NCBI GenBank assembly: GCA_914767715.1
Contig: OU612072.1
Location: 6,758,001 to 6,822,000, forward strand
Direction: 5' to 3'
Source of the DNA: Membranipora membranacea
Lineage: Eukaryota > Bryozoa > Gymnolaemata > Cheilostomatida > Membraniporidae
DNA length: 64,000 nt
Shown here: positions 13,431 to 63,660 of the stretch, in pieces
How the letters are laid out: every line of letters begins with the position of its first letter
Position numbering within the stretch: position 1 is the first letter of the stretch
Program-made: the position numbers and the translations under genes
Notes under the pieces: generated by a model
Seen by the model: only the letters and a program-made list of their open reading frames with translations
The model's database searches: none
Told to the model about the DNA's origin: nothing

Positions 13431-13752
13431 GTACATTATACACAGCCAAATATTTTCTCTAACCTCATTGACATAATTCAACATCTTTTCTAAGAGACAA
13501 TGAAAGGTTCTACTTAAAAACATATTGCTTCCCGAAATACACAACAATATTCGATGTTGACCAATGAGTAAGGTATATCATAGGAAACTCAGGTGTTGGC
13601 ACTGAATTACATTTTAGTGGCATATAAGACTATGACGGTATTTGCAGAAGCCATCCAAACATAATATATGTTAAACAACAGCCACTTCTCACATGTTTAA
13701 TCAAATTGGCCACTCAGCATTTATGATACTCTTGACCTCTTTTTGCTTACAG

Positions 13753-13937: not shown

Positions 13938-14037
13938 GAAATCGATGTGGATGATATTAGCAAATAAAATCTATAATATTCAAATTGAGGCAAATACTAT
14001 GACCTTGTAACTTAACAACCTGATTATTAAGATGTCA

Positions 14038-20500: not shown

Positions 20501-21185
20501 AATGGAATAAAAATACTTACTGCGACAGCTCCAGTTTAGACACCTTGCAGGTAGTATACCTGTTAAATACAAAATTCTTTACTTCGTAAATTTATGTTTG
20601 ATAATTTTTAATTGACGCCTACTGACAGATGTCAAATGGCAATGATAAGCTTTACAAGCATAATAAAATGTCAAATCTCAACTGATAGATACCACACTAA
20701 AAAAAGTGAGTGAAGAAGATGTATCTAACAAATCCTCATTCAATTTTCAAAGCTTTGAATCTTATAAATGGAGACCTCTTTGCCTCTGTTTCTACCTGGT
20801 ACAGGGCATATTCCTGTGTCAATGTAACAAACAATTGGCCCGTACTACCAGCAAACTATTGCAGTGTTTCCATTAAAGTTTTGAGCTGATTGAATAGTGG
20901 AGAAATGACATCAAACAAGAAGAACATTCACTCTAAGTTAAATGAATCAGAGAATCTACATTGCTCCATTACTCACTGACAACAATGATAGACTATTACA
21001 TACCAGAATGTGCGCATGAAAGTTCATCAAGTCAAATATATATCACAGATATAACTTAGCCTACCGAGCAATTTATTCGAAATTAATTACACTAGAAGGT
21101 TTTCGTAGATCCAATACTTACTGAGGGCAGATGTTATCGAAGCAAAGGCACAAACAAGTGCTAAGCTGAGAAGTACAATCCTCAT
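17108..21185 (-). CDS. Gene A: secreted antistasin-antistasin-WAP protein
   Basis: Six exons: 21185-21122, 20559-20521, 18682-18590, 18378-18280, 17719-17687 and 17289-17108, all joined in phase 1 and giving 169 aa. Residues 1-21 are a signal peptide (MRIVLLSLALVCAFASITSA). The mini-exon (about 22-34) has two Cys. Antistasin-like domains follow at about 35-65 and 66-98, each with six Cys in the C-x3-C-x-YG ... C pattern. Next come a Pro/Thr linker (99-109), an eight-Cys WAP (110-150) and a short tail ending at TAG 17110-17108. By comparison with hirustasin, the P1 positions are Asn (domain 1) and Arg (domain 2), so domain 2 could inhibit trypsin-like proteases. The WAP exon also contains a GTAAGT (17143-17138) before the stop; I chose read-through because no further exon was seen and the left-arm copy has an AATAAA just after its stop. 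Gene A has AACAAA there. A secreted protease inhibitor is inferred from the domains. Confidence 0.8.
18959..19935. repeat. Inverted AAGCCACTGG minisatellite pair in gene A intron 2
   Basis: About 13 units of AAAGCCACTGGCC(A/C)-type run from 18959 to 19150. The complementary GGCCAGTGGCTTTTT array runs from 19831 to 19935. The flanks 19151-19205 and 19783-19830 are also inverted copies of each other, so the whole is one foldback element with minisatellite ends. The repeats are open in several frames (KPLAKKPLAIKPL-like) but non-coding. Confidence 0.85.
19922..20236. repeat. Long near-perfect palindrome in gene A intron 2
   Basis: About 145 bp to either side of 20071-20083 are complementary with few mismatches; the innermost 25 bp (GGAATGTAAGCAGTCCTTAC and following) are perfect. 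The outer ends run into the GGCCAGTGGC minisatellite. Palindromes this long can extrude cruciforms and are unstable in clones. Confidence 0.85.
20237..20277. repeat. Perfect 19-bp hairpin
   Basis: The arms AAAATTTTCTTTTTCCCAT and its exact complement are separated by ATT, directly abutting the longer palindrome. Confidence 0.85.
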
Positions 21186-36595: not shown

Positions 36596-36609
36596 ATCAC
36601 TATGGCAAC
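36596..36609 (+). promoter_or_regulatory. X-box of gene C
   Basis: ATCACTATGGCAAC matches all 14 positions of RYYNYYATRRNRAC, 40 bp upstream of the TATA box. Confidence 0.65.
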
Positions 36610-43552: not shown

Positions 43553-43566
43553 GTTGCCATGGGGGT
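43553..43566 (+). promoter_or_regulatory. X-box-like element of D1
   Basis: GTTGCCATGGGGGT, 139 bp upstream of the D1 ATG. The left half fits an RFX site well; the right half is degraded. Confidence 0.45.
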
Positions 43567-43691
43567 GATATATTTTGTTTGATGGTTGCAGCAATGACCA
43601 GTCATTGCAAAGTGGTCGCTTCATACTACAGGTTGAGTTGCTATCTATTTAGCTGTTTTGGTGACTTACTAGCTTCTACCGCTGACCGATA

Positions 43692-44529
43692 ATGAGGATT
43701 CTTCTCGTCACAGTTGCCCTTTTAGGCGCTCTCGTAACATCTTCTCTTGCACAAGGTTTTGATAAGTATATGCAACAAGTTTTTCTACCGCATAATAGTT
43801 TTATATATGTTGATGCAGCCGTTTGCAGTACACTCAATCTAGTATTTACTCTTATAGATAGTATTTTCATTTGTTGGGATGTTTCTTTTTCAATATTTAT
43901 AAGTAGAAGCTAATACTCGGGGCTTTCCTGTCAGCAATCACTAAAATTTGCACGGTTTATTGTGGCAATTTGGTAAGCAAGCTCGCCATAGCCTTGTATA
44001 ATATATTTTGATGTTTGATTCAGCTTTAGTTGCCAATGTCCACTTTATGCTTGCAAAAGTTTCCATAATCTAAAGAGTTTTTCCTGCGCTAGTTATGCAT
44101 CCAAAAATTTCCAGCACCCAGAAACGTCAAAAAGCTTTTCAGTTGTGTATGAGATTCTTTAAAACAACGGCAATATTTATATTGAGTAAAAACATTCCAA
44201 TGTTATCGAACCTTGGTCTGATATAGAAATTTATTAAAAGCAATAAAATTGTCATGCTTATCTTAGATTTGTCTTTCTCCTCGTTGTAGTAGCTTCTCCG
44301 TGTTCGTGTCAAACACCCTTCTGCACCTGTAAGTACATCAATGTAGTAGCAAGATACAATTATGCTTTGTTTAAAGATCAATTGATCACTTAAATGCAAA
44401 AGGAAATTACCTACATATGAGCTTTTCTCATGAAATTATACATTAATCACGCCTCTCCATATCATGTGAAATGTGTTTAATTCTGCAATTTTTTTTCAAA
44501 TTACAGGCGATACCTACGTACTATCATAA
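43692..44529 (+). CDS. D1: secreted four-Cys mini-peptide
   Basis: Exons 43692-43755 (or -43761), 44290-44328 and 44507-44529, giving about 41 aa. The signal peptide MRILLVTVALLGALVTSSLA is followed by a mature part of about 21 residues containing SPCSCQTPFCTC, a C-x-C-x4-C-x-C array whose last Cys is built across the exon 2/3 junction. The C-terminus is ...YVLS. The exon 1 donor is odd: the position homologous to D6's GTAAGA reads ATAAGT, so either a rare AT donor or a weak GTTTTG six bases earlier is used. The acceptor TAGTAG at exon 2 could give two forms. I do not recognise the peptide family. It is secreted by its signal sequence, and a disulfide or metal-binding role is inference. Confidence 0.7.
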
Positions 44530-47500
44530 CAGCATGGGCCAGCAATCAGATCATTCCATCATTGTCTCTGTCTCTCTTGTTAGTATTACAAAATGTATAC
44601 TGTTACTAGTTGAGAGATAAATTATGATACGCAATAACTGTTTTGCCTTTGCCTATGAACACTCTTTACCATACTATTAAATACACTGCTTCATTTCAAA
44701 TGCATGCAATATCCACATAATTTCATGGCACTATTACGGCCGAAAAAGCCAACTGCTTTCTTTACTGAGCGATTGGGATATTTCACAGCTATTTCAAACA
44801 AGGATCTTGTTCATATTCTTTCTATCCTTTGAGCGAAACAGTAATCACTCATAGCAGTTCATCTTATGGTATCATAGGTAGAAGCCACTATGGCTGTTAT
44901 GCATCATGAACTGATCGAGTTTGTTCTGCAGTCATCATAAAGTGACGCTGTGGCCAATAGAAAAATTTCAGCTGTAACTTTACAAAAAGCCGTAGCTGGA
45001 ATATTTTGGTCGGCAACTGCTAGAAGAAAAAATAAAATGACGTGTCTCAAAGCGATGTTTTATAATGCTTTTCATAAGATAATGAATGAAACAACTCGAT
45101 AAAAAGTTCTAACTCACAAGAAACAATGTAATGCTGACAAACACATATATATACAGCCAATAAAATGTCCTCAACACAAAACAAAAAACTTAAAAAACAA
45201 TATTGTCAAGTTCATAGTATGCAACCTTGATTACAATAATTAGCATCCTTTGGCGTAGCAAAGAAGCAGAAAACGAGGGAAAGTTATGACAGCATTATGC
45301 ACTTTGTACTATCTCTTGAAGTATTGTTCATCATATCTTTTAATGCTCGTAACAGATTCAATATCATATCAGATATCATCATGGTATGTCCTCATTTCCA
45401 ACCACACTTCGAAATTTTAATATCAGAGTAATTGATTCCTAGAATGATGGCATCTTCAAAAATCATATCAATCACTTAGTTGACAATCTACAGAGTCAAC
45501 AAAAAAGATTGTATGCATGTTACTAAGGGGATTGGACCAGGGGGTCACATTTCTAGTCATTTTGAGAGACTAACAATCAAGCCATTGCAAATGCTTTTTG
45601 AATACAGAACTTTTAATCTTTTATTATTTCATAATACAAGATATTTTGAATATGAGAACAGACCGTGAATACAGCACACGATCCAACAAGCTTAAATTTA
45701 CTTAAACCTACAACATGCGAGGAGAGAGGTCCTTGTTGAGCGATGGCATAGCCTTGTTCAACAAGCGCCTTATTGGATTTTGGACAGGCCAGAGTGGGAC
45801 CTCACAGTTAGGCTGGTGGGGCGTCTCTGCTCGTGCGGTGAATAGCTGGTACGATGGACATGTTTTGTCTGGGTTTTTCATGATGTTCGATTGGTGTTTT
45901 TGTATTTTGTTGGAGGGTTGGCCACCACTCTCATCACAGACTTTCTGGCTGACTGATGCTTTTATTTACTCTTTTTTGAACATTTATCACTCTTAACTTA
46001 ATTTGCAATGTTTCTTCATCACAGAATACAAAAATAGATATTTTTTACAACTAAACTTTAATTACCTCCACTTGTAAAAAATCTTCATGATGATTTTATG
46101 ATACTTTTGTCAAACCAGCCTCACTCTCGTGTGCAAGTATAGCTACTTGTAAGACCAAATCCCAGTAACTTGAGCACAGAATGAGCAAAATGATGACACC
46201 TTATCCTTCCTGGTAGAGGGATATCAACTCACAAGTTGCTATGTTAATACAGTCTAGGCAGAATCATTGTGTGGCTCAGTTGAAGACCAGCCATTACAAG
46301 ATGTTCACTGCATTCTACAGGTTTAGTTGCTATTCGTTTTACAGTTTTGAGATTGGATTTATTCCTATCCGATTTCAACCACAGTTGTGCAACCTTGCTT
46401 TATAACATGCTGTGTACATGACTTCCATATGCTGTTAAAGATGTTGTGCTAAAGATTCACATAATAACATAGGAAAAATACTATAACAGAATATCAATGA
46501 GCAGAGGAAATTAATGAAAAAGACCCATGTTGTTGGTGCATGCATATGAGATATTTCAGTCAGAATTTGTCCCGATCACAAATGAACCGATCAATGTTAC
46601 TGCAATCGAAGCCATAACTTCAACATGATTGGTATGCATGAGTGCCAATATCACCTTGGTATCATCAGTAAATTAGTATAACCCAAGAGGAGGAAAACAT
46701 TCACTAGAAGATTACATCACGATTTCGAGCATCAGTGAAATGACATTATTTTGGAAGTCTCAACTACATCTGTTCGTGATTTTTCCATCTTTACTCCAGA
46801 TCCATGAATTTTCGATAAGTTACATGGTGAATTCGTTCAATGGCTGAGCTTTTTTGAACTCGAGTTGATTGACCCTTATCCAACACCTTCGTCAGCCAGG
46901 GTAAAGAAAAATATTGAAATTAGAATATAATTGATTTGTTTTATTGTAAATTTCAGATTCACATTCAAACCATCAAACATCGGATCAAGCGTTTATCCTG
47001 CTTGCAGTTATCTGAGAAGTTTACTTCAGTTTTGAATTATTTTTATGTTGAACAGGTCTGATTGAACTTACCAACCGCATTCATATTTGCGTTGTTTTCT
47101 TCTTTTTTTTCTCTCATTGCTGAGCGAGTCTCTAGCTCTCACCCTGAGGTATCTACGACATTTGAACTGATCACGTGCTAATGAGTAACTAAATGTATTG
47201 TGAGATGTGAAATTAGTGGAACCTGAATTCCTATTTAAAGTGAAAGGACTATCCTCCGGCAGGCAACAACTTTCTAACTAGCTGAACTTAACTCTAGCAG
47301 ATAGTTAGTTCTCTAGAGTGAAATAATCATAAATTTGGTTGCAATATTCCCTTATTGAGCTATCCATGTAGGTGGGATGGCTTACATACATGCTATCACA
47401 CATAATTATCTTCAAGCAGCTTTGCCTTACACTTACATATAGTTGGTTAGGAGAAGTTAAATCAGCAGTGAAGAAGAAAGATGTATCAAACACCCTGGTT

Positions 47501-48140
47501 ACAACTATTGAGCCTCTCAAGCAAGAGGAGAGAGGTGCCTGGTAGAACACTTAACTAAGTGCACAGCTCCTTATGAAATCTTCAGTAAAAATATCATCAA
47601 TCCGATGTTTCAATAATATGCCATATCATCTCAGGTTTCATCATTTACATACAGTCCATGTGATGTAACCATCTTCCAGCGCAACCCAAAATTCAAATCT
47701 TGATAATTAGCTAAATAAAAAAAATTGTGGAAATGTTGAAATGAATTAATTATTTGCATCCTCTCAAAGCATGACTATCAATTAGCCCCACAAACAAGAC
47801 CTATGATAATGCATATTCTTAGATGAAAATATCAAAAGAGAATTTGACGGTCTAGTTGTGTTATACTGCACAAATCTATTGATGGAATCGGCATTCACGT
47901 TTCAATTTATCATGCCAGGTTTCATCATCTCCTGTTTATATCATTTCTTGTCATCGTTTTGAAAATTACAATTTGGAAAAGATTTGGTTGCACCTGTCAC
48001 AACTGAATCATCAATTAGCCCATAAATAAGATTCATGATGATGCATTTATTTTTCCGATGGTGTAAGATTATACGAATTGGGCCTTGTTAAAGGAACTAC
48101 AATTTTGCATTTGCTCGATGACTCTGTGAAAAATCTTCAT
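44530..48140. other. D1-D2 spacer with a decayed D copy
   Basis: The D1 3' flank to about 45010 is homologous to the D6 3' flank (about 62920-63430). A degraded X-box-like GTTGCTATGTTAAT lies at 46234-46247, followed at about 46285-46345 by promoter sequence resembling D1 and D6 but with no signal-peptide exon. The ORF at 45715-45996 is unassigned. Confidence 0.5.
46234..46345 (+). pseudogene. Promoter relic of a lost D copy
   Basis: An X-box relic, then GACCAGCCATTACAAGATG and CTACAGGTTTAGTTGCTATTC, which match the D1 and D6 promoters. The ATG exon is absent. Confidence 0.6.
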
Positions 48141-48154
48141 GTTGCTATGGTTAC
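48141..48154 (+). promoter_or_regulatory. X-box-like element of D2
   Basis: GTTGCTATGGTTAC, 150 bp upstream of the D2 ATG. A TATATAA follows at 48230-48236, about 55-60 bp from the ATG. Confidence 0.5.
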
Positions 48155-48290
48155 ATATTTTGTGAATCATAATTATCCTTAAAGACAAGTCATTACAATA
48201 TAGTCGCTGCCAACAACAGTTTGCCTTGCTATATAACTTTTGCTACTTGTGACTTTTTTTATTCTCTCAAATCTCAACAGCTCACCAATC

Positions 48291-49492
48291 ATGAGGTTCC
48301 TTCTCATCACAGTAGCTTTTTTAAGTGCTCTCATAACATCTTCTCTTGCATTTAAGTATGATTAACATCAGTGGCGTATATTAGCACTCACGGCCCTCAG
48401 ATTTCCGTGAGTGGCTGAATAGCTCAGTGTGTAGAGCGTCTGCCTAATGATCACTGTATAATGATTGTTGTGGGTTCGAATCCCATCAAGGACAGTTTTT
48501 TTTCAAATGGGTGCTTTATAACTGGAGCATTTTTACCGTAATCTTCTACTGCTGTTGAGTTGTTTTCTGAAAGTACCCAACAGCTCAGTGAGCTATTGAA
48601 ATACCTCTCTGCTTGCACTATTTTGCTACCGATATGCAAAAATTTCCGTGGTGGGAGGGCGCTTAAGCGCCCCTCCCACACCCTCCCCGCCACGCCTACA
48701 GCGTGTGGATCATTATGCTCATCTCTGAAAAGTCAGTGAGTGAAATTTTTTAGAATATACGCCCCTGATTAACATGTAGCAATGAGTAATCGCGGTGGGT
48801 TGCTGTCAATATTTTGTTAAATTGTCTGGGTTTAGTCAATCCAAATTATTGTTTTCGGTAATCGTGAGTACAAACAACATCTAAGTTTTGAGATTTCTTG
48901 TCGTCACATCACACGATGCTTTTAAATTGATGAAGATTCTAAAAGTCATGAAGAAAAACATATCACCTAAACATTGTAATTTATTCAAGATTCTTGTTTT
49001 TTTCTCTTTCATCTAGCCTCAGTGTGTAACGGAAATCTGGAGAAATGTCTATCTGGTAAGTACATCTACAGCAGTACATGTGCAGAGAACCTCAATAAAT
49101 ATGAAAGTAAAACAACAATAAATAGGAGGATGTACAGCATACAATCCTTACTAACCAAATAAATGAATGAAATAATAACATAGCATTATATTTTTATGTA
49201 TTCAACTCTGTAACCAGAATTACATAGAGATCTTTGATAAAAGGCTCCTTTGTGACTTCCCAGCAGAGTCCAAAGAAAAGGCCAAGCAAAACAAAATCTT
49301 GAGTAAGAATTTAGGACAACCGTGATCGGATTTTATCCTGACGAAAGTTGTACTCAAAATGTTTACAATTTAGAGATTTTTATTAGTCTCCATCACACAT
49401 TCACTCGGTTACGCTTCTTTGTACTTTAATAATATGCTTTATGTTATTATGTTCCTCTTGTTTTTTGTTTCGTAGATGTCATAGTCTCATAA
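48291..49492 (+). pseudogene. D2: mini-peptide gene with broken first donor
   Basis: Exons 48291-48351, 49017-49055 and 49476-49492 are recognisable by homology to D3. They encode the signal peptide MRFLLITVAFLSALITSSLA, a mini-exon with SVCNGNLEKCLS and a tail ending VIVS. At the exon 1 boundary D3 has A|GTAAGT, but D2 has T|TTAAGT. The only nearby GT (48356) is in the wrong phase and leads to an early stop, and reading on reaches TAA at once. So D2 is probably non-functional or spliced abnormally. Exons 2 and 3 still look intact, with GTAAGT and AG signals and AATAAA at 49614-49619, so the loss is recent. A hAT-like element is inserted 17 bp after the exon. Confidence 0.65.
48369..48767. 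mobile_element. hAT-like non-autonomous element with tRNA-like core
   Basis: Terminal inverted repeats CAGTGGCGTATATT and AATATACGCCCCTG, flanked by a perfect 8-bp target duplication ATTAACAT (48361-48368 and 48768-48775), the hallmark of hAT transposons. Inside, 48417-48496 has A-box (TAGCTCAGTGTGTAGAGCG) and B-box (GGGTTCGAATCCC) sequence but does not fold as a proper tRNA. It lies in D2 intron 1. Confidence 0.85.
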
Positions 49493-49619
49493 TGTCAGAG
49501 AGCAGCCATTGGATACTTTTCTCACCATCTGTTGGGTAATTAATATTCTCACAGCGTGACTAGGAAATGTAGGCTTTTAGCAATACAATGCATGCTATCC
49601 ATTATGAGGACTGAATAAA

Positions 49620-52562
49620 CTATTCTAACAAAAAAAACCTCTGTTATTTTTATTGTTTCCTCTTGAACTTTCAAATACACATTACACTCACACATTCTAA
49701 TGACTAAACATATTTCTAGGTGGACCAGCTCTGCATGTTATTGGTTTTAGTTTCCATGGCCTTGCAAGTTGAATGGTCTCAGTTTTTTTTTACTACAAAC
49801 TAAGTTCGGATATTGCACAGACAGAATAATAAGCTTGTTTGGATTTTGCAATTACACTTATCATGTTACTCTTGGTATCATCGATAATGTACTATTTTCA
49901 GTCTGCGAAAAACAATCGCTGTTTTATTAGTGAAGGCATTGCAAAGCAAAAGATATCACCTGTGACTTTTATAATGGTTGTAGCTGAAAGTTTTTGATTG
50001 GCCATTCCTTGAAAAATGAGGCAATCAGGGAAAATTATCATGGTGCAACTCTCTGCTTAGACCAATAGGTATGATTGTTCATGACTAGCATAAATCATTA
50101 AGATCTTATTACAGCACACTAGGGCTATGATCGATATTATTTTACCACTCCAGATGTGTACTGCCCAAAATGTCTTTATACTGATAAGTTCATTGCACTA
50201 GTAACCCACTTTGCCCAAGTGCAGCAATCAATTCAGGTTGATTATCTTTGCATCAAATTCCAAATGTCTTTGGAGCAGCACTAGTTTCCGATCCAACTAT
50301 CAATATTCAGTTAGTAAACGATGATAATCCACAGCTTTTATCAACAATAATCACAAGGATTTTTATATCCTTCCTATCAGCAAAAAGTCGTGCGCATGTC
50401 ACCTTAGGAACCACACATAGTACACTAGATAACACGTATTAGGAAGGAAAATATCTTAATCACAGGCAGGCATGAATAGCAAGAAGCAAAGAAAGCATAT
50501 CTCAGTCTCAATTTTTCCTTTGAGTCTGTTCTTCAGACCTTTGACTAAAAGCACATTTGGTATAGTCAATCAATGACTCACAAGACTTACTTTGTTTATA
50601 CTTAGCACCAAGCATATCCTTTGGTAACCAAGATTGAGATAATAATAATAATAATATAATAATAATAATAATAATAATAATATGAACTTTATTTCCTATT
50701 CAGTGCCCCTTTCGGGGCAAATGAGAATATGGTTACATAAGATTGATGATACATGATACAAGATACATAAGATCAATGATACATGATACAAGATACATAA
50801 GATACATGAAACACTGATACGCTGGTACATAAGATTGATGATACATGATACGACTCATCTATTTAGCGCACCCTTGTACAATGTAAGGGTGGGCAAGCTA
50901 GGCCATTGATCGGAGAGCTCACCTCTTTCAGCAGAATGGGTAGCAACCGGGATTCGAACCTGCCACTCTCAGATTGAGAAGCTCAAATCCTAACCACTAC
51001 ACGACCCTGCCTGCCTGCCGAATGTGAATGTGAAGTGAGATTATCTTTCTGATTTCTTCTTCAGTAAAGTTAATGACTATGAACCTTGCAAAAACAGCCT
51101 CAGCAAAAACTCTCAGCAAAAAAACTAAACCCCAAGCAGAAACCATACTTCAAATACTTTTGAATGTGTATAGATAAGTTTAAATTTGTGTCAATAATAA
51201 GTATTCAAGAATAAATGCAGTTGTTGAACAGCTCAACTAATAACATTTGGAGTAGTAGTGACAGTCATGACCATGCATAGATCTTATACGAAGCCATCAA
51301 TATTGGTAGGAAGTTGAAATGTGTTATGCGCTTGCTCTAACTTGATAACACCATCGCCCTTCCGACAATTTGGGAAATACAAGTGGCTTGGAAATTTAAC
51401 TTCAAAGCGCTCTTTTAGTCATCAACAAAACTTATTTATATTTTTGCAATTTTTCCTTCCTGACAGCTTTAATTTTCATGTTTATAGGTTTGAAAAGGTA
51501 TGACATGAACACAGCGAGCTATCTCAAAGTTATCAGATTGAACTTTTCAATCACATTCCGCATTCGTTGAATTTTTGCTGACATGAATATCTACAAACAT
51601 ATCTAACCAAGCAGTAGCTAGCTCTCACCTGTAGCATGCAAATCAGTTGTATCGATCATGTTCTAAAGAGTAACTAAATATACCGACAAAAATTAGTTAA
51701 ACCTCAGTGAATACCTATCTCCTACCTATGCTCCCACTGACGACATCTCCTAAACTAATTTAAACAAGCCCTAGAATGTTTATTAGTAGCAAATATCGCA
51801 CATCATGATGCGATCAATGTTGGTGAGGTGGTGGAGGGTTTTACATGCATGCCATGCACTGCTCACTCAGAATTATTAAGTTTATGGCACCTTTGCCTTA
51901 CGCTTGCAAATAGCTGATTATGAAAAGTTTTGTCGTTAGTCAAGAAAAATGATAATGCAAGCGGCTTGGTTATATCTTTTGAAACCTTCCAAGCAAGTAT
52001 TTGAGATGCTTCTGTGTAACACCTTATTTCATGCACTGCTCCCAAATAGAATCTCCATCTATCATTTCATTATCATGTTCATTATCATGTTCACATATTA
52101 TCATGCCATCATTTCCTGTCCATGTTATGTCAGCATTTCCAAGCAAATCCAAAAAGTGAAATCTTGAAGATTTGCATAATGTATAATATTGGCAACTTTG
52201 AAAGTAAATTGTTGGCCCTCTAAAATCATCGCTACCAATTATCCTCACAAAAACAACTCTTGACAGCCCGTATGTCCTCAGATGAACCTACCAAAGCAGA
52301 TCTTGAAGAACAATCTGTAACCAGCTCTTAATGGAATTGTCATTTATCATACCATCCCAATTTTTCATATTTTACATTACAGTGTCCGGTTTCCTCATCT
52401 CCTGTACATGTCAATTTGGTGGCATCTGTTACAACATAATCATCAAATAAACATGATTCATGATGATTTATATTTTCCAATGATATAATATTATGCCAAG
52501 GGAACCTTGTTATAAGAACAAAAATTTTGTATTTCCTCGATGACTAGATGAAAAATCTTTAT
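49620..52562. other. D2-D3 spacer
   Basis: Holds a SINE at 50638-51013 and diverged repeats shared with other D spacers (for example CATATCATGCCAGGTTTCATC-like stretches, also near 47620, 47915 and 54530). No gene is supported. Confidence 0.5.
50638..51013 (-). mobile_element. tRNA-derived SINE with ATT-repeat tail
   Basis: On the minus strand the head reads GGGTCGTGTAGTGGTTAGG (A-box) then GCAGGTTCGAATCCCGG (B-box at 50949-50962), a body with 24-28 bp ATACATGATAC repeats, and an (ATT)n tail at 50638-50683. This is a typical SINE architecture. Confidence 0.8.
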
Positions 52563-52576
52563 GTTGCTATGGCGAT
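52563..52576 (+). promoter_or_regulatory. X-box-like element of D3
   Basis: GTTGCTATGGCGAT, 153 bp upstream of the D3 ATG. Confidence 0.5.
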
Positions 52577-52715
52577 TGAATATGTAAAATCATTGTTATC
52601 CTCAAAGACAAGCCATTGCGAGATAGTTACTGCCTACAACAGGTTGCCTTGTCATACTATTTGCTATCTTTGGGACTTCTATTTATTCCTTTCCAATATC
52701 AGCAGCTCACCAGTC

Positions 52716-53870
52716 ATGAGGATTCTTCTATTCACTGTAGCTCTTATAAGTGCTTTAATAACACTTTCTCTCGCAAGTAAGTATTATTATCATGTCACGA
52801 CCTCAGAGTTTGAGGGCAGGATGTGTTTTGCCATCTGTGCAAAGGTTAAGAGCTCAAATTTATGGCTTACTGCGCCGCAAATGTACCTTTCGAGTGAGTG
52901 CTTTGGATAGCCGATAATACTTTGTTTACTCGCTTGGATGTAAATCTTAATTGTTTTTCTGCAGTCATAAAATACAAGCAACATCTACAAAATATTAGGA
53001 TATCTTGTCATCGCTTTGCATAATACCTATAGATTGATTCAAATTTAAAATTTGATGAAATTATGAAAACCTCTCATGCTTGTTCTGCCTCGCCCAAATT
53101 TTGAAATTAATCTCAGCTCTGCGATGCTAATTTAAGTTCCACCTTTTCTCCTTCCTAGCCAAACCGTGTCTTGGATCACTGGAGGTATGCCTATCTGGTA
53201 AGTATATCCACCATATATTAAATAGCAGTACACTCACAGAAAGCCTCATTGAATAAAATTGTAAAAAAGTTAATAGGATGATGCATGATATACAATCATT
53301 ACAATCAAAATGAATGAATAAAAGAATAACATAGCAATATAAATTAAGTACTTATCTTTGTAGAAAGAATTACTAAGAAATCTATGATTCGCAATGTTCC
53401 AAATGTTGACATGACATCAGTTTTAGGCCCAATCGATACATGGGAATAGCAGTTATCTTTCGCATATATTGATATGCATTTCTTGATGCGAAACCAGATA
53501 CTGTTTTCATTAGCAAGCATCGTATAAGGCAGTGTTGATGAATGGATAGTGCACCTGCACACAATGACTTCAACAAACGTTGTCGCGGGAGGCCCGGTGT
53601 CAAATACCTTGAAATCAATAGCATTCATCATTCGAAATGGGAGCGGACCACTCATTCGAAGCGTGGAACCACAGTGATTTAGGGCTTCTTTGTGACATTC
53701 CTAAGGGATCACAAGTATATACCAATCAAAACGTCGCCTTTTATAGGAATTCATTGAATTCAAAATGGCAATGACACATATTTAATTGTTATTATCAAAT
53801 CATCCCATCACCATTATATTTTATTAGTTATAATGCTATTTTTTGTCTTGTAGAGGAATTTGTCTCATGA
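52716..53870 (+). CDS. D3: secreted two-Cys mini-peptide
   Basis: Exons 52716-52776, 53159-53197 and 53854-53870, all with standard GT-AG signals and phase 1, giving 38 aa. The signal peptide MRILLFTVALISALITLSLA precedes a mature part of about 18 residues with KPCLGSLEVCLS and the tail EEFVS. Of the four array cysteines, positions 1 and 3 remain while positions 2 and 4 are Gly and Ser. AATAAA lies at 54012-54017. D3 is the intact sister of D2, with matching exon lengths, 3' UTR and flanks. Function unknown; one disulfide loop is predicted. Confidence 0.75.
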
Positions 53871-54864
53871 TGCTGGTGGGAATGCCATCAACTATCTTCC
53901 TCACTATCTGTCAGTCATTAAACAAGCAAGATATTCCCACAACAAGTCAAGGACATGCTAAATGTAATGCTATAAGTAATTTAACATGTATATTATCTAT
54001 TATGAGGACTTAATAAACAATTCTAACAAATAGCCACCTTTGTTGTGCTTACAAACATCGATTCTCATACTTTCAAATACATATTTAGACTGAACAAATT
54101 TCTAGGTAGCTCAGCCCTGCCAAATTAATACATAGCTTGTTTACATAACAAGTTAGTATTGGCCATTGCAAATCACCTATGGTATTCTAGGAATCAGCTT
54201 TAACTCATGGAATTCTCAGGAACTTTGGAAATATGGGAAGGTAGCATTGTTTAGTTGATCACTGCTTGCTTGGAAAAATAAACAGGGAGAATTCTCATGG
54301 GGCAATGCGCTTGAGACCGATTTTTTGTGAATTTATCCCGTACCATGTTGTGATATGTGCTTACTTATTTTTGATAATGTAAGGAATGTCTGAACAGTTG
54401 CCCTGGTTATAGTTATTGGAGGCTTCAAATGAAAGTCTGAAGGTGCCTCTGCATAACACTAAATATGGTCTATGGCTCCCTAAGAAATCTCCATCCATCA
54501 TGTCAATATCACATCATGACATCATGTCAGGTTTCATCATCCCCTGACCAAATCGTGTCACTTTTCCAAATTTTAAATCTCATACGAGAACAGTGGTTAT
54601 GGTTGAAAGGAAATTTGATAGAACCTGTTAAAACACGATCAGCAAATAGCCTTCCAACCACAATGCATATTCTGTGATGATAGAAAAGTATCACTTTCAT
54701 AACATGCCATATGGCGTTGGGTGTCTTCATACTCTGTTCACTTCATGGCAGCATTTCCAAGAACAATCCAAAATGGTTCTTTCATATACATAAAAACAAG
54801 ATCTATAATAATGCATATTTCCTGTTGGCCTGATTAGAACTTCTTGTGAATGAAGGGAATGACA

Positions 54865-54985
54865 AGACAAGCCATTACACAACTGTTGATATTACGCATT
54901 GAACTGCTTGTTTCTGTGACTAACATTAATTGTTTATTCTAATGATGGGTATCATGAGTATTTCCCTAGTTTGATCTTTCCTTTC
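54865..54985 (+). pseudogene. Decayed D copy between D3 and D4
   Basis: ACAAGACAAGCCATTACAC at about 54868 matches the D2/D3 promoter. Then ATCATGAGTATTTCC at 54951 aligns with the start of a D signal exon but reaches TAG after five codons. No matching exons 2 or 3 follow. Confidence 0.55.
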
Positions 54986-55189
54986 TATGTTATGATATGT
55001 GATTGTGTGTTGTCGAATCAATTATGGTTGATGTCGTGAAACAACTTTCTGAATATAAAGTGTCATAACAGTGGCATTTAGAATGATAATAATGAGAAAA
55101 TTATTACATGACAGCTACTTATTTAATGGGTATGGAAATTATACAATAAAACAGGAAACTATAAGGAACAACGACAAGGAAATAGTCAC

Positions 55190-55203
55190 GTTGCTATGGT
55201 GAT
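55190..55203 (+). promoter_or_regulatory. X-box-like element of D4
   Basis: GTTGCTATGGTGAT, 151 bp upstream of the D4 ATG. Confidence 0.5.
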
Positions 55204-55340
55204 ATGTTTGTGAGACCATTGTCTGCCACTTAGACCAGTCACAGTCATTACAAAGGTAGAAGCTGCATACTACAGGTTGTTTAGTATCTTGCCACATAAG
55301 ATCCATTTACCAACATCAGATAGCAAGCTGACCACGGATC

Positions 55341-56305
55341 ATGTTGATACTTCTAGTCAGTGTAGCCCTCTCAGGTGCTTTAATCGCATCTTCTATTGCA
55401 CAAGGTAGGCATCTAAAACTCGTATCAACTTAAGAATTATATTGCTTGAGACAAATTCATAATACTTACATTTGGGTTGAAATATATGCTTCACTTTGCC
55501 TGTCAAGCTAATGTACCCCTTGTACTTCCCAGCCGAGGATCAAACCATTAATTATTTAAAAAATAATTAGGTTTTTGGTTTTTGTTAGTGCAAGCCAACA
55601 CATATGACACATATGATATCCCTGTTTCATCCCAATCTCCAAATGAGTTACATATGTCAACTGCAAGCTTAATGTAGATTTTCTTTCTCTTTTAGGTCAA
55701 ACCGAACCATGTTTGTGTATGATAGGCCCGTGTCCCTGCAGCGGTGAGTGTATTCGCTGAAGCTAAAAACCATCTGTTCATTAGTATGCTGTAGTATACC
55801 CTCTAGAGTACAGGTACAGGGACCCATGGTACTCAAGCCACACCCTATACCCTTACATGCCAGAATTCCGGCTACTCTTATCATCAAAGAGGTAGAGGGG
55901 GGTCTTTTTAGTGCATGTGGGGTGTGCAAACACACAGTGGACATCTGATATGTTTAGTCCCGCTCCGCCAGTACCAATTCAGAAACGGCTGCTGGTGCCG
56001 GGAATTGAGCCTGGACCTTACAGAGCACAAGTCTTACCCTTAACCATCAGACCACTCCTGACTCCTCATATGTATTCATATTGCCTTCAAAAAGCATTTA
56101 CTTATCTAGATTTACTGGCACCTTTGTGACATCTCATTGTGACCAAACGGACATTTTAAGCCATACAAAACAACTATTGAGAAACTGTAGTATAAATTAT
56201 TTTCAAACTTTACGGCGCTGACTATTGCAATTAATTATAGTGTGCAATTTGTAACCAGTTTTCTATATTTTTCTATTTACAGTCATAATATCAGCACTGA
56301 TATAG
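55341..56305 (+). CDS. D4: secreted four-Cys mini-peptide
   Basis: Exons 55341-55404, 55696-55743 and 56283-56305, standard splice sites, phase 1, 44 aa. The signal peptide MLILLVSVALSGALIASSIA is followed by a mature part of about 24 residues with EPCLCMIGPCPCS, the full C-x-C-x4-C-x-C array with Pro before Cys3 as in genes B and C. The C-terminus VIISALI is longer than in the other copies. AATAAA lies at 56553-56558. Intron 2 carries a SINE. Family not recognised outside this locus. Confidence 0.8.
55798..56075 (-). mobile_element. tRNA-derived SINE in D4 intron 2
   Basis: The minus strand reads GGAGTGGTCTGATGGTTAAG (A-box region) and CCAGGCTCAATTCCCGG (B-box region). Body and tail limits are approximate. 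Confidence 0.65.
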
Positions 56306-56904
56306 GACGACTTCATCACTGTCTCCCTCGCGCTATAGATATATTTACACCGGGTTAAGGAGTTGTATTATCTCACTTGTCACATTATTATGATGGGGTT
56401 GACCAACAAACTATTTAACACACACCAACCTTTTTTATGCTCATGAATACTTTTAGAACCATCACCAATCAACATATCAACATTCTCACCTGTGAAAAAC
56501 GATGTTTTCTGTATTTTTTGTATGCTGTACATACCAATTGTGAAATTGACGCAATAAACCGTTTTAAAACACCAGAAAAAATGCAATGCTATCAGAATAT
56601 GATATTTCCCGATGTTGTCAATAATATTAACAGGGATAGTACATCCTTCCTGTCAGCAAGAAAGTTAGTGTGCATAGAGTGTCATGTAACAAATCATTGG
56701 TAATAAACATGATAACTTGAAATATGAAGGAAGATCGTAATTTCAGGCAGGAATTTATAGCAAGAAGTGAAAAAAAATATGTCAGCCTCAATATTTGGTT
56801 GCGACTTTTATGTCTATTCTTCAAACCAATAACTAACAGCACAGTTGTTTTAATCAACCGCCAGAACTATGTCGTATGTACTGAGCATCATTAATTCACT
56901 TTAG

Positions 56905-57745
56905 TGATCAGGTTTGAAATATAAGTACGCTGATGATACTACTATATATACACCAGTTAAACACCCAAATCATAGTGTAGCTAATGGCATTCAGCAAGCT
57001 TCAAATTGGTCTGTAGCTAACAACATGCAACTAAATCATGACAAACTGTTATTTTAAATGTGGCTTTTTCTGAGCGTAAAGGAATTGATGATCCTGTTAA
57101 ATATTTGGACACTGATTTAGTTTTTAGTTTTTAGGCGTTACTTTTGACCGGACATTAACTTTTTCAAATCTTATTAGTGATATTTTTAGCAGATGTAACA
57201 GTAGAATTTTCCTTACGAAACAACTTAAACAGATGGGCATGAATTCTGATGGCCTTTTAACTTTTTATAAGACGAATGTCAAACCTGTTTTATCATATGC
57301 TGCTCCTGTTTGGTACACATTTTTAACAGAGCATGACAAGGCAAAATTAGAGAAGATACAGAAAACTAGTAGTAAAATTGTTTTAACCGAAGTTGATGAT
57401 TATATCAGATTAGATCAGCTTAATCTTCCAAAGACTGACGAGTTTTTATTTTCCGTCTGCGCTCACTATTTTAGTAAAGTTTCTGAGGACCCGAGCCATC
57501 CTCTTATTAATAGAATCAAGATTCAATAATTTTAAAACATCCTCTCGTAAACCTGTAATATCAAAATAGCATCCTGAGAAGTGTCGAACTGGGAAGCGCA
57601 AGAAGAGTTTTTTTCAGTTTTTCATGTGGCATTATAATGCATGAAATACTTTTTTTCTATAACCAACCTAGTTTTATCATTTCCTTCACTGGAAAATGAT
57701 ATTTTGGTTGTGAAATAAACACATACATACATACATATATAAATA
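56905..57745 (+). mobile_element. 5'-truncated non-LTR retrotransposon end
   Basis: Begins in the RT palm (YKYADDTTIYTP near 56925, with an intact YADD), continues FLGVTFDRTLTF and a C-terminal domain (ORF 57233-57529, MGMNSDGLLTFYKTNVKPVL...), then a 3' UTR and an (ACAT)n tail at 57718-57738. Small frameshifts are present. It belongs to a different subfamily from the 40.4-43.0 kb element. Confidence 0.8.
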
Positions 57746-57749
57746 TGAT

Positions 57750-59212
57750 GTCAGGTTAATCTTGCTAAATTCTTCTTCAGTAATGTGAATTTCAAAGACC
57801 ATGCATTTACTGTTACCCTGCTGTAGCATAAAGGTCAGATTTTTTGATATTCAGTTGCAGATGTAAAACTCAGTAAAAAACAAACTCTGAGTGAAAACTA
57901 TACTCCCACTGACATCATCTCCAAAACAAACTAAGAAAACCCTAGAAAATATTTAGTTATTCAGGGTGAGAATGTATATTGGTAGCCAAGATCACACATT
58001 ACTTATGAAGCGATAAATTTTTCTTAGATTGTGAATCTTATAACATTCATACTATGCACTGATCACACAAAATTATATTCTGGCGCCTTTGCCTCACACC
58101 TACAGATAGTGATGGCAATGCCTCGGTCTCGGTCTCGATCCCGGTCTCCTCGAGAGACTCTCTCGTCTTGATGAGACAGACACATGTCGAGACTTTATTA
58201 TAAACATTATTATGATGATTACTCGATGGGCCATACATGATAATGATCAAATGATAATATCAAAATTAGTAAATTTCTCTTGCATCATATTCAATTTCCA
58301 GATGCCAATGAAGTGCAGTTTTCAATTTCATCGGCATCAATATATGTTTCTGTCTTGTCTTGGTCTCGAATTTTGTTGGTGTCTCGGTCTCGTCCTGTCT
58401 TGTCAAAAGTTTAATCAGAGGTGAAGAAGATTGATGTATCAAAAACCCTGGTTATTATTGAGCCTCACAAACTAGAGAATGGGGGTGATTCTGTAGAACA
58501 CTAAACTTAGTGCACAGCTCCTGATGGCATCTTCATTTATCTTATCTTGTGTAAGCATTTCATTTTTATGTTTCCATAATATGCCATATCATGCCAGGTT
58601 TCATCATTTCCTTAGTGACAATCCGTTACTGATAATCAAATAATTTTGACTAGTAGGCAAGCATACAACATTTCAAGCTGCACAGCAAGTAACATAGCAA
58701 GCTGCATACAACTAATGTGTTGTATGAAAATTTTCACCAAACCGCCATAAGTTGTCAATCATTGTCAATGTTTGAAGTTAGTATTAAAAATGATTTTTCT
58801 TGTAGGAAAATAACACAGCATACTTATAACTATTCCTCTAAATCACTCTTTCAAGAAAACATCTGTAATTTCTTACAGCTTTGCGTACATGGGTGGCACC
58901 AAAGAATTTTGGGTAAAGGAAGGGTTTGACATCCCAATTCATCTTTCATATGACATGTGAATACGTTTCAAGTCAGGTCGTATTGATTATTGTTCATATC
59001 ATCTAACCACTTCCCAAATATGAAATGTCATAATAAAATAGCTAGAAAGAAAATAATTAGCAAATAATTTGATGACATCTCCAAACACTATCAGCCACAA
59101 ACCGAATGCCTTTGCATTACCACAAGGATCTTTATATCACTTAGTATAACATGATTGACATTTATAAGAACACATATGCAACTCTGAGGAGCATCAACAA
59201 GCGAATCTTACT
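57750..59212. other. D4-D5 spacer
   Basis: Shares blocks with the D1-D2 spacer (58405-58560 resembles 47450-47590). That homology is interrupted by about 300 bp (58103-58404) bordered by GGTCTCGGTCTCG-type repeats, which looks like an insertion. No gene is supported. Confidence 0.5.
58103..58404. repeat. Insertion with TCTCGGTCTCG ends
   Basis: Absent from the homologous spacer near 47440. Both margins are rich in CGGTCTCG/CTTGTCTTGG motifs. The family is unknown. Confidence 0.5.
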
Positions 59213-59226
59213 GTTACTATGGTGAT
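59213..59226 (+). promoter_or_regulatory. X-box-like element of D5
   Basis: GTTACTATGGTGAT, 141 bp upstream of the D5 ATG. Confidence 0.5.
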
Positions 59227-59353
59227 ATATTTAGTGAGACTAGCGTTTGCTATGTGAACCCATGACAGACATCACAGAGGTAGTTGCTGAAGACTATAGG
59301 TTGCTTAGCATCTTGCCGTTTGCCATCAACTGATTGCGAGTCGAACACCAATA

Positions 59354-60427
59354 ATGAGGATTCTTCTAGCCACTATAGCCCTACTAGGGACTTTTGTAAT
59401 GTCTTCTTTTGCACAAAGTGAGTAACCGCATTATGATCATCACTACGTCTTGCATGTTAAGTTGAGGATTGATTCATGCCTTGCCCTCATATTGCAAACA
59501 TGATGACCGCTAATTATTGTATACTCACAGCGTGCTTGTGACACCTATCCAAGAATGCCATGCATTGACGCATTGATAAGGGAAAATGAGCCACAGTTAA
59601 CTTCACAGGCAGGTCAGAGCAGATCTAAGGATCGATCCAGTAATCTATTTGAATAACAAAATATGTTAGTTCTTCACTTTGTCTACATGCAAGCCGAAAC
59701 CATAACTTAGGGATTTCTTGGCGTAACTCAATGGAAGCCAGATTCTAATTAGCATTCAGACAACCTGGTTTGGTGATGCCTTGATGATGGTTAGCATCAA
59801 AAAGAGAAAACAAAGTTGGGAGCTGAAATAAAATAGAGAGAAGAGTAAATTAAACCTAGCAATTAATTATTCCATTCCAAGTAGTTGCAAAGAGGTTAAG
59901 TTGTCTTGATTCTGACTCCTAACTTTGTATTGGCTATAATTGTCAACTTCAGGCACATCTTAACCTTTTTCCATGCTTTCAGGTTTGTGCGCGTGTATAA
60001 CAGACCCCTGTGAATGTGACCCTCACGGTAGGTACATTTCCTGTACCATAAAGGTATATACATGGTGATATTTTGCAAATTAGCCAATAACGCTGACTAA
60101 AAAATTAAGATCAACAATCGGATGAAGTATGTCATATGCAGATAAGATGCTGACAATCCATATGTAGGCCTATGGTTATTTGTAAGTGACAGTCCCTATA
60201 TCACGAATATTTAGAGATTTTTAGGCATCTTTGTGGTATTAGTGTTTTACACATAGGTATTTCAAGTGAGACAGCCTTGGTCCTTTCAAAACAAAGTTGC
60301 ATCCGAAATGGTAACGGCTGGTAGGTAAAACTATTCTCAAAACACACACTCACTTCTCATATCATATTAGGTGTCACTTGGTCACAACTGCTTCTTTTAA
60401 TTTGTAGGAAACATCATCTTTTCGTAG
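59354..60427 (+). CDS. D5: secreted four-Cys mini-peptide
   Basis: Exons 59354-59417, 59983-60027 and 60408-60427, standard splice sites, phase 1, 42 aa. The signal peptide MRILLATIALLGTFVMSSFA precedes a mature part of about 22 residues with SLCACITDPCECDPH and the tail NIIFS. The full C-x-C-x4-C-x-C array is present with Pro before Cys3. The peptide is acidic after the array. AATAAA lies at 60583-60588. Function unknown. Confidence 0.8.
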
Positions 60428-60684
60428 CCCCGCAGAACAATTCATAAGATCATTCCATTATCGACTGGTGTGATAGTCAGGATTTATGTTAATCGATACT
60501 TTCAACATCGTAGTGAAGAAACAAACTCAATATAACAATTCCAACACACGCAGACTAATGAAATGCTATTGAACTTACTTTCAATAAAACTGCTAAATTT
60601 TAAAAGGCCTCAGCCATACAGCTAAGACCTACAACAATGCATATTTTCTGATGATGGAATCTTATACGCTAGAAGGGTGCAACG

Positions 60685-61420
60685 TGGATGGCCATTACAA
60701 GATTGTGCATCAAAAGCGTTGTCTTCTTTATTTTTGCAACCCCTGTATATCCTTTATTTTGATGGACCAACAAATATACGGATTCCCTTCTATTTTCATA
60801 TTTCATCCTTAGGTCATGACATGTGATTGGCGAGTCCGGATGTGTCAATAAGTGTTCACGTCATTTAACCACTTTTCAAATATGAAGTGTCAAAACAACT
60901 TCATTAATAATGATAATAATTAGGAAATAATAAGATGGCAGCTACCATATTCGTAGACATATGATTGAACTAGAAACTATAAAACAACAACAAGAAATTA
61001 TTGCTATGGTGATATAGTTTGTGAACGCAATCTTCCCACATACTGATTACAGTCATAACAAAGGTAGTAGCTGCATAGGACCATTCTGCTTGCAGGATAG
61101 CCTTGTGACATAGTCTATCTCTGCAGCACAGCAGTGGTGGCGCTGCCTTCCATCAAGAAAGGCAACTCCCAGGGTTCAAGGTTATGAGATATCAAAACCA
61201 GTGTTCCATGTAGGCCCAAATATTTCCAAATTATGGGTTTCCATTGTTTTCCCAATTTTGGTACTCAGACTAGGTGAATTAGTTCAAGCCCTATGCTGCA
61301 GAGACGAACATATGCCTCAACAGTTCGCACATGCGCAGACTGGCATAGGACAGGTTGCTTAGTATCTTTCGTTCCGACAACAGATTGCAAGCTGAACACA
61401 AAACATATGTCTATTGTATG
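60685..61420 (+). pseudogene. Two decayed D-copy promoters between D5 and D6
   Basis: At about 60690 GGCCATTACAAGATTGTG matches the family promoter block. At 61000-61013 ATTGCTATGGTGAT is X-box-like, followed by GTCATAACAAAGGTAGTAGC. After about 260 bp of unrelated sequence comes CAGGTTGCTTAGTATCTT near 61350, as in D4 and D5. No signal-peptide exon remains. Confidence 0.55.
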
Positions 61421-62085
61421 GTAGACTTCTATCTATTGAGAGGTTCAATTACAGTAGTGTTACTGTGTCACTAATCAGATGATTTTGAAAAAAAATGTGT
61501 AGTTTTGGCATGAGAGGCTTGGTTCATACTATTAACAGGTCATTCCTGTCTAACAGAGAACAATATGTAATGGGTAGGGAAGGTTTTTCTGAGCTTCCTC
61601 AGGGGTGTACTTTGACCACTTCATATTCTAAATATTTATATATGACATGCTGAATTACAGTTGAACTGAATCGAATCCCCATATAATGAGACAACATTTG
61701 TTGACGGATCTGAATTCAGTCCAGAAATAGCATTTCATGATTGACAGATTTTCTCTTTGAGGTTTTGTTTCCATTCGATTTTAATTTCACATATAATGTC
61801 CGGGTTGGTGTCTGTTGGTATCAAATCTCTGAATTTGTAAACTATGGCATTTCCCGGTTATGTCAAGTCCTGGCACAGCTTACTGCCATGATAACTGTTT
61901 CAAGCATCAAAAAGAATAATTGCGATTTGAAGATAATTTTCTGTCATTTTATAAAATTGCTTAGTGCTGTTAGCTCTACATTGAATTTCTAGTTGACACA
62001 CATTTTCTGATGATTGACATATAATATATTACATCGAATAATCAACCTTGTCTTAGGACATTAACAAAACCTCATGTTACCATGG

Positions 62086-62099
62086 TGATTCGATGTGTT
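62086..62099 (+). promoter_or_regulatory. X-box-like element of D6
   Basis: GTTACCATGGTGAT, 127 bp upstream of the D6 ATG. Nearly palindromic around CCATGG. Confidence 0.5.
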
Positions 62100-62212
62100 A
62101 AATATGTTGCCTCATTGACCAGTCATTACAAGGTTGTCGCTTCATACTGCAGGTCAACTTTCTATTCATTTTGCTGCTCATTTTGTGACTCACTACTATC
62201 AACTGACCGATC

Positions 62213-62920
62213 ATGAGGATTGTTCAAGTCACATTAGCACTTTTAGGCGCTGCTGTAACATCTTCTCTCGCACAAAGTTTAGGTAAGAACCCTCATCATG
62301 TTTTGCCGGATGTCCTCTTTGTGTAATGTACAGTAATACATGAACGTGTATCAATCAGGGATCAAGCTTGTGATTTCTCTTATAGATAGTTATGAAAGTT
62401 GTTGGAAATTCCTTTTTCTACATATATTAATACAAGACAAAACAAAGAGCTGTCTTGTCAGCACTCAGAACTCTGCAGAGTTTTAGACTTCCTCATCGAA
62501 AGATCCTTGCCGATATATATTGATGTTGATTTCGGCTTGAGATGTCTATGTCATGCTCATCTTAGATATCTTTTTTTTTCCAGTAGCTGCACTGTGTCTG
62601 AGTCAAACCCAACCATGTAAGTACATCACTGAGTTGATAAATACATTTATGCATTGTACAATGTGTACACATATATATATATAACTTTATTGGCGACCAA
62701 AGTCGTCTCAATGGAAGTGTTATGCACTCAGTGCCAGAAATAAAAATAGAATCAAAAAAACGGCTGAATGACCATTTCAAAGAGAAATGAGCTTGTTTGA
62801 GCGAATAAATCCCTAATGGTATCGAAAATATGTTACACCTCATTAAATAGCCAGCATGTGGAATGTTTCTTAATTTTGTTCTTTTTTCTTATTATTATAG
62901 GCAATATAATAGTGTCGTGA
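62213..62920 (+). CDS. D6: secreted two-Cys mini-peptide
   Basis: Exons 62213-62282, 62584-62616 and 62901-62920, standard splice sites, phase 1, 40 aa. The signal peptide MRIVQVTLALLGAAVTSSLA is followed by a mature part of about 20 residues with AALCLSQTQPC and the tail NIIVS. The second cysteine is created at the exon 2/3 junction, as in D1. Against D1 the exon lacks two codons and the middle cysteines. AATAAA lies at 63044-63049. The surrounding 1.7 kb (61610 to about 63430) is a duplicate of the D1 neighbourhood (43120 to about 45010). Confidence 0.75.
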
Positions 62921-63439
62921 CAGCATGAAGCGACGGTGTCAGACCATTTCTACATTATTTCTGTTGGGCAGCAGCAGCAGGTCTATGATATGTTTTTGTT
63001 ATTAGTACAATCTGTATACTATGGTTAATGGATAAATCAATTTAATAAACCACTTACTACACAGTAACTGTTCTTCCACTCATGAGTTTTTTTTTCATAT
63101 AATTAAATACACTGCCTCATCTCAAATAAATACATTACCCATGGCCAAGTATCAATAGTAGGGAGTATCAGTTTACAAAGCTGACTGCTTACACTACTGG
63201 GTAATTATGGTCATTTCCGAGATATAGCAAACATCAAGCGTATATTTTTTTATGCTATTAGCGAGACAGTAATTAAGCATATCCTGTCATCCTATGGCAT
63301 TATAGGTAGAAGTATTCTGCAATAGCTGTGAAGCATCATGAACTGATGAAGGTTGTATTGCAGTTCCCATGTTCCCATGTCGCTTTGGACAAAAGAAGGA
63401 TTTCAGCTGCAACTATACGATTATCTGCAGCTTGAATGT

Positions 63440-63660
63440 AGTAGGAGGTAGCTCAGTTGGTTAGAGCGCCAGACCTTTAACGCGCAAGCGTTTGAGGTCC
63501 TGGGTTCGAATCCCGCTGCAGTCTACTGACTACTGGGCTCAAATGACGCCCCAGATGTGCTTCAACCTGCCTGCAAACTGAGAGCAACTTGGCTTGATAT
63601 TTCTCAGTCCTCGGACGGAGACAACACTTCGGGTTTTAACCCAAATTTAATTGGCAACTG
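63440..63660 (+). mobile_element. tRNA-derived SINE head
   Basis: GGTAGCTCAGTTGGTTAGAGC (A-box; 20-nt core at 63453-63472) and CTGGGTTCGAATCCCGC (B-box, about 63499-63515) are tRNA-like, but the acceptor and anticodon stems do not pair. The adjoining 140 bp is probably the SINE body; its end is not defined. The remaining sequence to 64000 shows no gene. Confidence 0.6.

Follow-up and report, generated by a model that had tools for sequence, protein, structure and literature searches.

In the genome of the bryozoan Membranipora membranacea, a stretch of 64,000 nucleotides of contig OU612072.1 (positions 6,758,001 to 6,822,000 of the forward strand; here referred to as the window, or C8:6758001-6822000) contains the edge of a large tandem array of genes predicted to encode tiny secreted peptides with fixed cysteines. 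The array, which has the appearance of a family evolving by birth and death, probably arose from the 5' end of genes in an antistasin/WAP family of protease inhibitors, three members of which (genes A, B and C) are found in the same stretch. Coordinates are given relative to the window and, beyond 64 kb, run on past its right end. The genome searched comprises 339.3 Mb in 18 contigs, of which those mentioned below are labeled C8 (the contig of the window), C2, C1 and C4.

Extent of the array

An earlier note had described six plus-strand loci as an undescribed tandem array of six genes. The six-locus observation is real, as all six exon sets are found at the positions claimed, with first exons starting at 43692, 48291, 52716, 55341, 59354 and 62213 (Table 1). 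However, the number was too small: the six loci are the edge of a larger array that extends ~94 kb further beyond the window. Using a profile of the six window first exons, 28 first-exon copies were identified on C8 between 43.7 and 158.3 kb (E < 1e-5) in a search of 284 kb that included 60 kb to the left and 160 kb to the right of the window, and a second profile, built from these 28, added a match at 143.7 kb (E 3.6e-9). On the left side of 43.7 kb, nothing but the first exons of genes B and C matched at E < 0.1. Four further copies are located within 20 kb of C2. There, a gene-A-like WAP gene precedes the tiny genes by ~11 kb, an arrangement that points to the copying of a block from one chromosome to another. 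As DNA queries, the promoter of locus 1 matched 16 places (13 on C8 and 3 on C2) and that of locus 4 matched 7, all on C8.

Gene models

Of the 32 copies (28 on C8 and 4 on C2), 19 could be modeled as intact three-exon genes, one of them (107478) by hand. These genes share a plan composed of a signal exon, a cysteine exon of 33-51 nucleotides (nt) and a short tail exon with the stop codon, and encode precursors of 37-47 residues with mature parts of 17-27 residues. The signal peptides encoded by exon 1 follow the pattern MRILL...SSLA; as judged by eye, all 19 precursors begin with a hydrophobic 20-residue leader that ends in S-x-A, i.e., a small-x-small cleavage site. Both introns are phase 1 in all 19 accepted models, where the model scoring favored phase 1 and C-x6-C. 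The net charge of the mature parts, counting K, R, D and E, is 0 to -5 throughout. An AATAAA or ATTAAA signal is found within 200 nt of the exon 3 start in 18 of the 19 genes, compared to 24% of random stretches, and AATAAA itself, which had been expected "usually", is nearby in 16 of them. The third exons of copies 74752 and 82861 are uncertain.

A DNA model of exon 2, with 15 tiny genes as its training set, does not depend on the gene-model scoring. It matched 13 additional places within the array at E < 0.01, some of which are near-copies of training exons; eleven of these have the pattern C-x-C-x4-C-x-C, one has C-x6-C and one has C-x7-C. With an exon finder that requires an acceptor, an open phase-1 frame and a donor, applied to both strands, C-x-C-x4-C-x-C exons were found 19 times in the 117 kb of the array and not once in 124 kb of flanking sequence, while the looser C-x6-C pattern was found 29 and 8 times, respectively.

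Within the window, the description of six genes requires modification. At locus 1 the donor position reads ATAAGT where the C2 relative, with 90% identity over promoter and exon 1, has GTAAGT, such that a weak in-frame GTTTTG is left. At locus 2 the donor position of the relatives reads TTTAAGT and the sole GT there puts exon 2 out of frame; the locus therefore looks broken and is probably a pseudogene. A reading of this locus taken by the script was implausible and was rejected by eye. The C-x-C-x4-C-x-C motif, originally ascribed to the family, is present at loci 1, 4 and 5 (43692, 55341 and 59354), but the other three have only C-x6-C.

Kinship with neighboring inhibitor genes

A free-standing family of six is not supported, as the tiny genes appear to be the minimal form of a larger family with antistasin and WAP members in the same stretch. 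Over the 284 kb, the exon-2 DNA model of the tiny genes matches the cysteine exons of gene A (E 1.3e-6) and gene B (E 1.1e-7), while the first-exon model matches the signal exons of gene C (E 6.1e-4) and gene B (E 0.018). Because both models match exons of the inhibitor genes, the two kinds of genes share exons, and the cysteine exon is homologous between the tiny genes and genes A and B. For example, the array exon at 124578, which was not part of the training set, reads IPCNCVRAPCPCS, where its counterpart in gene B reads KCVCVRAPCDCD. Further common traits are phase-1 exons, where modeled, and an X-box-like site 111-120 nt before the ATG of genes A, B and C. In addition, copies 149419 and 156272, which yielded no tiny-gene model, precede antistasin-type exons, and therefore the first exon is again tied to inhibitor genes; antistasin-type exons behind tiny-type first exons are found among the tiny-type copies beyond the window at 143312-143638 and 148702-148995 (minus strand).

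The inhibitor domains were identified using Pfam. For antistasin (PF02822, cut-off 21.2 bits), an exon of gene C passes at 22.9 bits and one of gene B is just under at 21.0 bits. The WAP domain (PF00095) of gene A scores 18.5 bits, below the cut-off of 20.8, but WAP is present in all 11 database matches of this gene. In contrast, neither domain was detected by Pfam in the six window peptides or in the 19 modeled ones; the tiny genes differ from genes A, B and C in lacking these domains and in encoding just 37-47 residues.

Promoter

The X-box is the consensus site of RFX transcription factors and is linked to cilia. In agreement with the earlier note, an X-box-like site is present 137-153 nt upstream of all six ATGs in the window. 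With up to two mismatches, GTTRCYATGGYGAT is found 14 times in the window against 3.05 expected, a number reached in none of 100 shuffles. Among 34 promoters, 17 carry a site matching at least 12 of 14 consensus positions (2.5% of 3000 random stretches do so) and 25 reach at least 11, at 108-164 nt before the ATG (10% of random stretches reach 11). The sites of genes A, B and C score 12, 11 and 12, respectively. The exact form, GTTRCYATGGTGAT, occurs 77 times in the genome compared to 7 for the reversed control, which suggests a genuine motif of this genome, and 9 of the 77 are located inside the array, against 0.03 expected from its length. From these sites we infer that an RFX-type factor may drive the tiny genes. 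Elsewhere, two groups of three exact, same-strand sites are found at C8:15705091-15761119 (56 kb) and C4:20906130-21027299 (121 kb), and these may mark further tandem arrays that share this promoter.

Sequence evolution and cysteine pairing

The signal exon is conserved; the mature exon, in contrast, changes at roughly the rate of the introns. In 12 pairs of copies, which overlap and in which distant introns align poorly, exon 1 exceeds intron 1 in conservation in ten, equals it in one and falls below it in one. In six sister pairs the signal part has a nonsynonymous rate (dN) of 0.057 and a ratio of nonsynonymous to synonymous rates (dN/dS) of 0.42, to be compared with 0.226 and 0.71 for the mature part; the nonsynonymous rates of the two parts differ with p 7.5e-7.

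Of 18 aligned cores, 11 contain both cysteine 3 and cysteine 10, 7 contain neither and none contains only one of them (158272, with C-x7-C, was left out, and 109888 has one additional cysteine at the start). On a tree of the promoter and exon 1 of the 28 copies, which is weakly resolved (10 of its 25 internal branches are fully supported), the cysteine type changes four times, and at least two of these changes are forced on well supported branches. Since the two cysteines come together or not at all, the simplest reading is that a 3-10 bond is added to a constant 1-8 bond, i.e., disulfide bonds 1-8 and 3-10 are predicted.

These data also bear on the possibility that the copies are decaying 5' fragments, composed of duplicated promoters and first exons of inhibitor genes that may or may not be transcribed but encode no selected peptide. 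Decay is evident, as two promoter relics without genes are found in the window (Table 1), 7 of the 32 copies are broken (including 48291) and 6 yielded no model, and exon 2 falls below intron 1 in conservation in 7 of the 12 pairs and exceeds it in only 5. Nevertheless, we consider this explanation quite unlikely for the family as a whole, because three exons, frame and stop are kept in 19 copies, almost all with a poly(A) signal, because the signal exon has a dN/dS of 0.42, because cysteines 3 and 10 co-occur, and because the four-cysteine pattern recurs in 11 of the 13 exon-2 places outside the training set.

Apart from these broken and model-less copies, which indicate that many are decaying, and the low conservation of exon 2, several other observations weigh against an array of functional genes derived from inhibitor genes. 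The mature dN/dS of 0.71, from six pairs, is by itself compatible with neutral drift, and the conservation of cysteines 1 and 8 is in part built in, because C-x6-C was demanded and then rewarded in the modeling. Nine of the 34 promoters score 10 or less, and the X-box statistics on paralogous promoters overstate the association because such promoters are not independent. Eight C-x6-C exons occur in the flanks. As regards kinship, over the 284 kb the second exon of gene C was not found by the exon-2 model, nor the first exon of gene A by the first-exon model, and gene A has C-x2-C where the tiny genes have their first C-x-C.

Proposed origin and role

On balance, descent from the 5' end of the inhibitor family, followed by birth and death of copies, remains the probable explanation. 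Of the larger proteins, each tiny gene would retain the signal exon together with the short cysteine exon near the N-terminus, drop the inhibitor domains and end in a small tail exon, where the direction would be one of loss of inhibitor exons rather than gain. Transcription from an RFX-type promoter would be followed by splicing of the three small exons, and signal peptidase would cut near residue 20 to free a peptide of ~17-27 residues that needs no further cleavage. This neutral or acidic peptide may fold as a small loop, closed by the 1-8 bond and, in the four-cysteine type, also by the 3-10 bond, with the variable residues between the cysteines contacting an extracellular target.

As to the role of the peptides, our tentative first choice, less certain than the origin, is a secreted defense or mini-inhibitor peptide at a surface or glandular epithelium, which is preferred in view of the likeness of the related genes to protease inhibitors. 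A more specific scenario, which is conceivable but doubtful, is that of a lineage-specific set of peptides, where an inhibitor gene lost its inhibitor exons but retained a ciliary-type (RFX) promoter, the signal exon and a ten-residue cysteine loop, and the peptides of about thirty diversifying copies act at the ciliated body surface.

Second to the defense or mini-inhibitor role is signaling, where the peptides would be hormones, pheromones or recognition cues. Tiny disulfide loops of acidic or neutral charge fit a receptor ligand better than a membrane-active peptide, and many divergent copies fit recognition. However, inspection by eye revealed neither a dibasic cleavage site nor a repeat in the 19 mature peptides, and hormones rarely vary so much between tandem copies. 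In Pfam, a single Neurokinin_B match was found (E 0.041, one of the six window members), and none of the 19 members matched a neuropeptide family with an E of 1 or less. Two of the models, the uncertain 74752 and 82861, end in glycine and may be amidated. Overall, signaling appears unlikely. Even less probable is a role as venom or prey-capture toxins: a conserved signal, a fast-changing mature part and fixed cysteines are the pattern of venom families, but no toxin homologue was found, the single match of a mature peptide in the PDB, to a spider toxin at E 6.2, being at chance.

More generally, a tandem family of tiny secreted disulfide peptides, as the earlier note had proposed, is supported, and nothing beyond chance was found for it in 5.8 billion proteins, in Pfam or in the PDB. 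With the six peptides as queries the protein search, which finds only relatives sharing five-residue words, gave five candidates and no homologue, none at E up to 1; the best PDB match, at chance level, was to the signal region of a viral hemagglutinin (E 0.19). Among the matches listed in a search of titles and abstract beginnings of the open-licence literature, no description of the family was found.

Other features of the window and the genome

Coordinates of the loci and of genes A, B and C are listed in Table 1. In gene B, the antistasin-type exon near 29323-29220 is, by eye, displaced in frame from its sister exons, which may mean that the gene is broken or that this exon is skipped. An inverted duplication with ~90% identity links 13529-15661 and 16106-17508, a further WAP-like exon is found on the plus strand at 13752-13883, and a divergent Fringe-like glycosyltransferase gene (PF02434) extends on the minus strand from 2728 to about -2400, with additional exons in the left flank. 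Three matches were obtained with Fringe as the query, and these are uninformative as to kinship. Stretches resembling transfer RNA (tRNA) were seen by eye at 48400-48500, inside intron 1 of the broken locus 2, and at 63440-63530, and are perhaps insertions of the short interspersed element type; ARAGORN reports no tRNA in the window and an Rfam scan of the window was also without matches.

Table 1. Positions of the tiny-gene loci, promoter relics and inhibitor genes in the window
Feature	Position	Strand	Remarks
Locus 1 X-box-like site	43553..43566	+	10/14 consensus positions; 139 nt before ATG
Locus 1 exon 1	43692..43755	+	signal peptide; weak donor GTTTTG
Locus 1 exon 2	44290..44328	+	four-cysteine; PCSCQTPFCT + cysteine completed by exon 3
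Locus 1 exon 3	44507..44529	+	tail + stop
Promoter relic	46228..46347	+	no gene; nhmmer E 1.5e-10
Locus 2 X-box-like site	48141..48154	+	13/14
Locus 2 exon 1	48291..48355	+	family donor lost, frame broken
Locus 2 exon 2	49017..49055	+	two-cysteine type; open in family phase
Locus 2 exon 3	49476..49492	+	
Locus 3 X-box-like site	52563..52576	+	
Locus 3 exon 1	52716..52776	+	signal peptide
Locus 3 exon 2	53159..53197	+	two-cysteine type; KPCLGSLEVCLS
Locus 3 exon 3	53854..53870	+	
Locus 4 X-box-like site	55190..55203	+	
Locus 4 exon 1	55341..55404	+	signal peptide
Locus 4 exon 2	55696..55743	+	four-cysteine; PCLCMIGPCPCS
Locus 4 exon 3	56283..56305	+	
Locus 5 X-box-like site	59213..59226	+	
Locus 5 exon 1	59354..59417	+	signal peptide
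Locus 5 exon 2	59983..60027	+	four-cysteine; LCACITDPCECDPH
Locus 5 exon 3	60408..60427	+	
Promoter relic	60999..61406	+	no gene; two pieces, 60999-61081 (E 5.1e-8) and 61344-61406 (E 6.1e-4)
Locus 6 X-box-like site	62076..62089	+	
Locus 6 exon 1	62213..62282	+	signal peptide
Locus 6 exon 2	62584..62616	+	two-cysteine type; second cysteine completed by exon 3
Locus 6 exon 3	62901..62920	+	
X-box-like site before gene A	36596..36609	-	12/14; 119 nt before ATG
Gene A	36715..39661	+	signal exon 36715-36778
Gene A cysteine exon	37210-37263	+	ICPVCVQAPCPCD; first spacing C-x2-C
Gene A further exons		+	linker 37669-37701; WAP exon 38082-38246; tail 39636-39661
Gene B	26895..31789	-	signal exon 31789-31711
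Gene B cysteine exon	31417-31370	-	KCVCVRAPCDCD
Gene B further exons		-	antistasin-type exons between 29789 and 27807; WAP exon 27017-26895
Gene C	17153..21185	-	signal exon 21185-21122
Gene C short exon	20559-20521	-	C-x4-C
Gene C further exons		-	antistasin-type exons 18682-18280; WAP-like exon near 17290-17153

Outside the array, a search of the genome with an Antennapedia homeodomain (49 candidates scored) revealed a Hox cluster of bilaterian type on C1, where at least five Hox-like homeoboxes with identities of 92, 84, 71, 62 and 66% lie within 61 kb, and further homeoboxes 0.73 Mb away on C1 (60%) and on C2 (83%). A silicatein-like query gave at best 41% over its full length and up to 68% over short pieces. 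Low CpG was also noted. For comparison, the genome paper of Xenoturbella bocki (PMC11521371) gives five Hox genes and 18 chromosome-like scaffolds; antistasin and WAP are not mentioned in its main text, and the peptide screen described there, based on repeated dibasic patterns and known neuropeptide models, would probably miss a family such as the present one.

Comparison with known systems and implications

Conserved signal peptides and promoters, a diversified mature part and birth and death of copies are characteristic of tandem families such as those of conotoxins and beta-defensins. The tiny genes share these traits but have no pro-region, a mature part of only 17-27 residues and an exon in common with protease inhibitors. 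Protegrins have the cysteine spacing C-x-C-x4-C-x-C and a strongly positive charge. The likeness to such hairpins is one of resemblance only, as the net charge of the tiny peptides is 0 to -5 and the bonds predicted for them (1-8 and 3-10) differ from the ladder (1-10 and 3-8).

The micro-exon genes (MEGs) of schistosomes are described as having exons of 3-81 bp and introns of up to 5 kbp and as being spread over the chromosomes (PMC10526429). They resemble the tiny genes in being secreted and in combining very short exons with long introns, but they are dispersed, whereas the tiny genes form a single large tandem array plus a small cluster elsewhere, follow a plan of three exons and have fixed cysteines. 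This is a likeness of structure and homology is not claimed.

Genes of 37-47 codons divided over three exons are easily missed by annotation. The cysteine pairing gives a disulfide prediction for the peptides encoded here, and the X-box-like promoters point to a candidate regulator. The locus offers one plausible route to tiny secreted peptides, i.e., exon loss from an inhibitor gene of shuffled domains, with both kinds of genes residing side by side.

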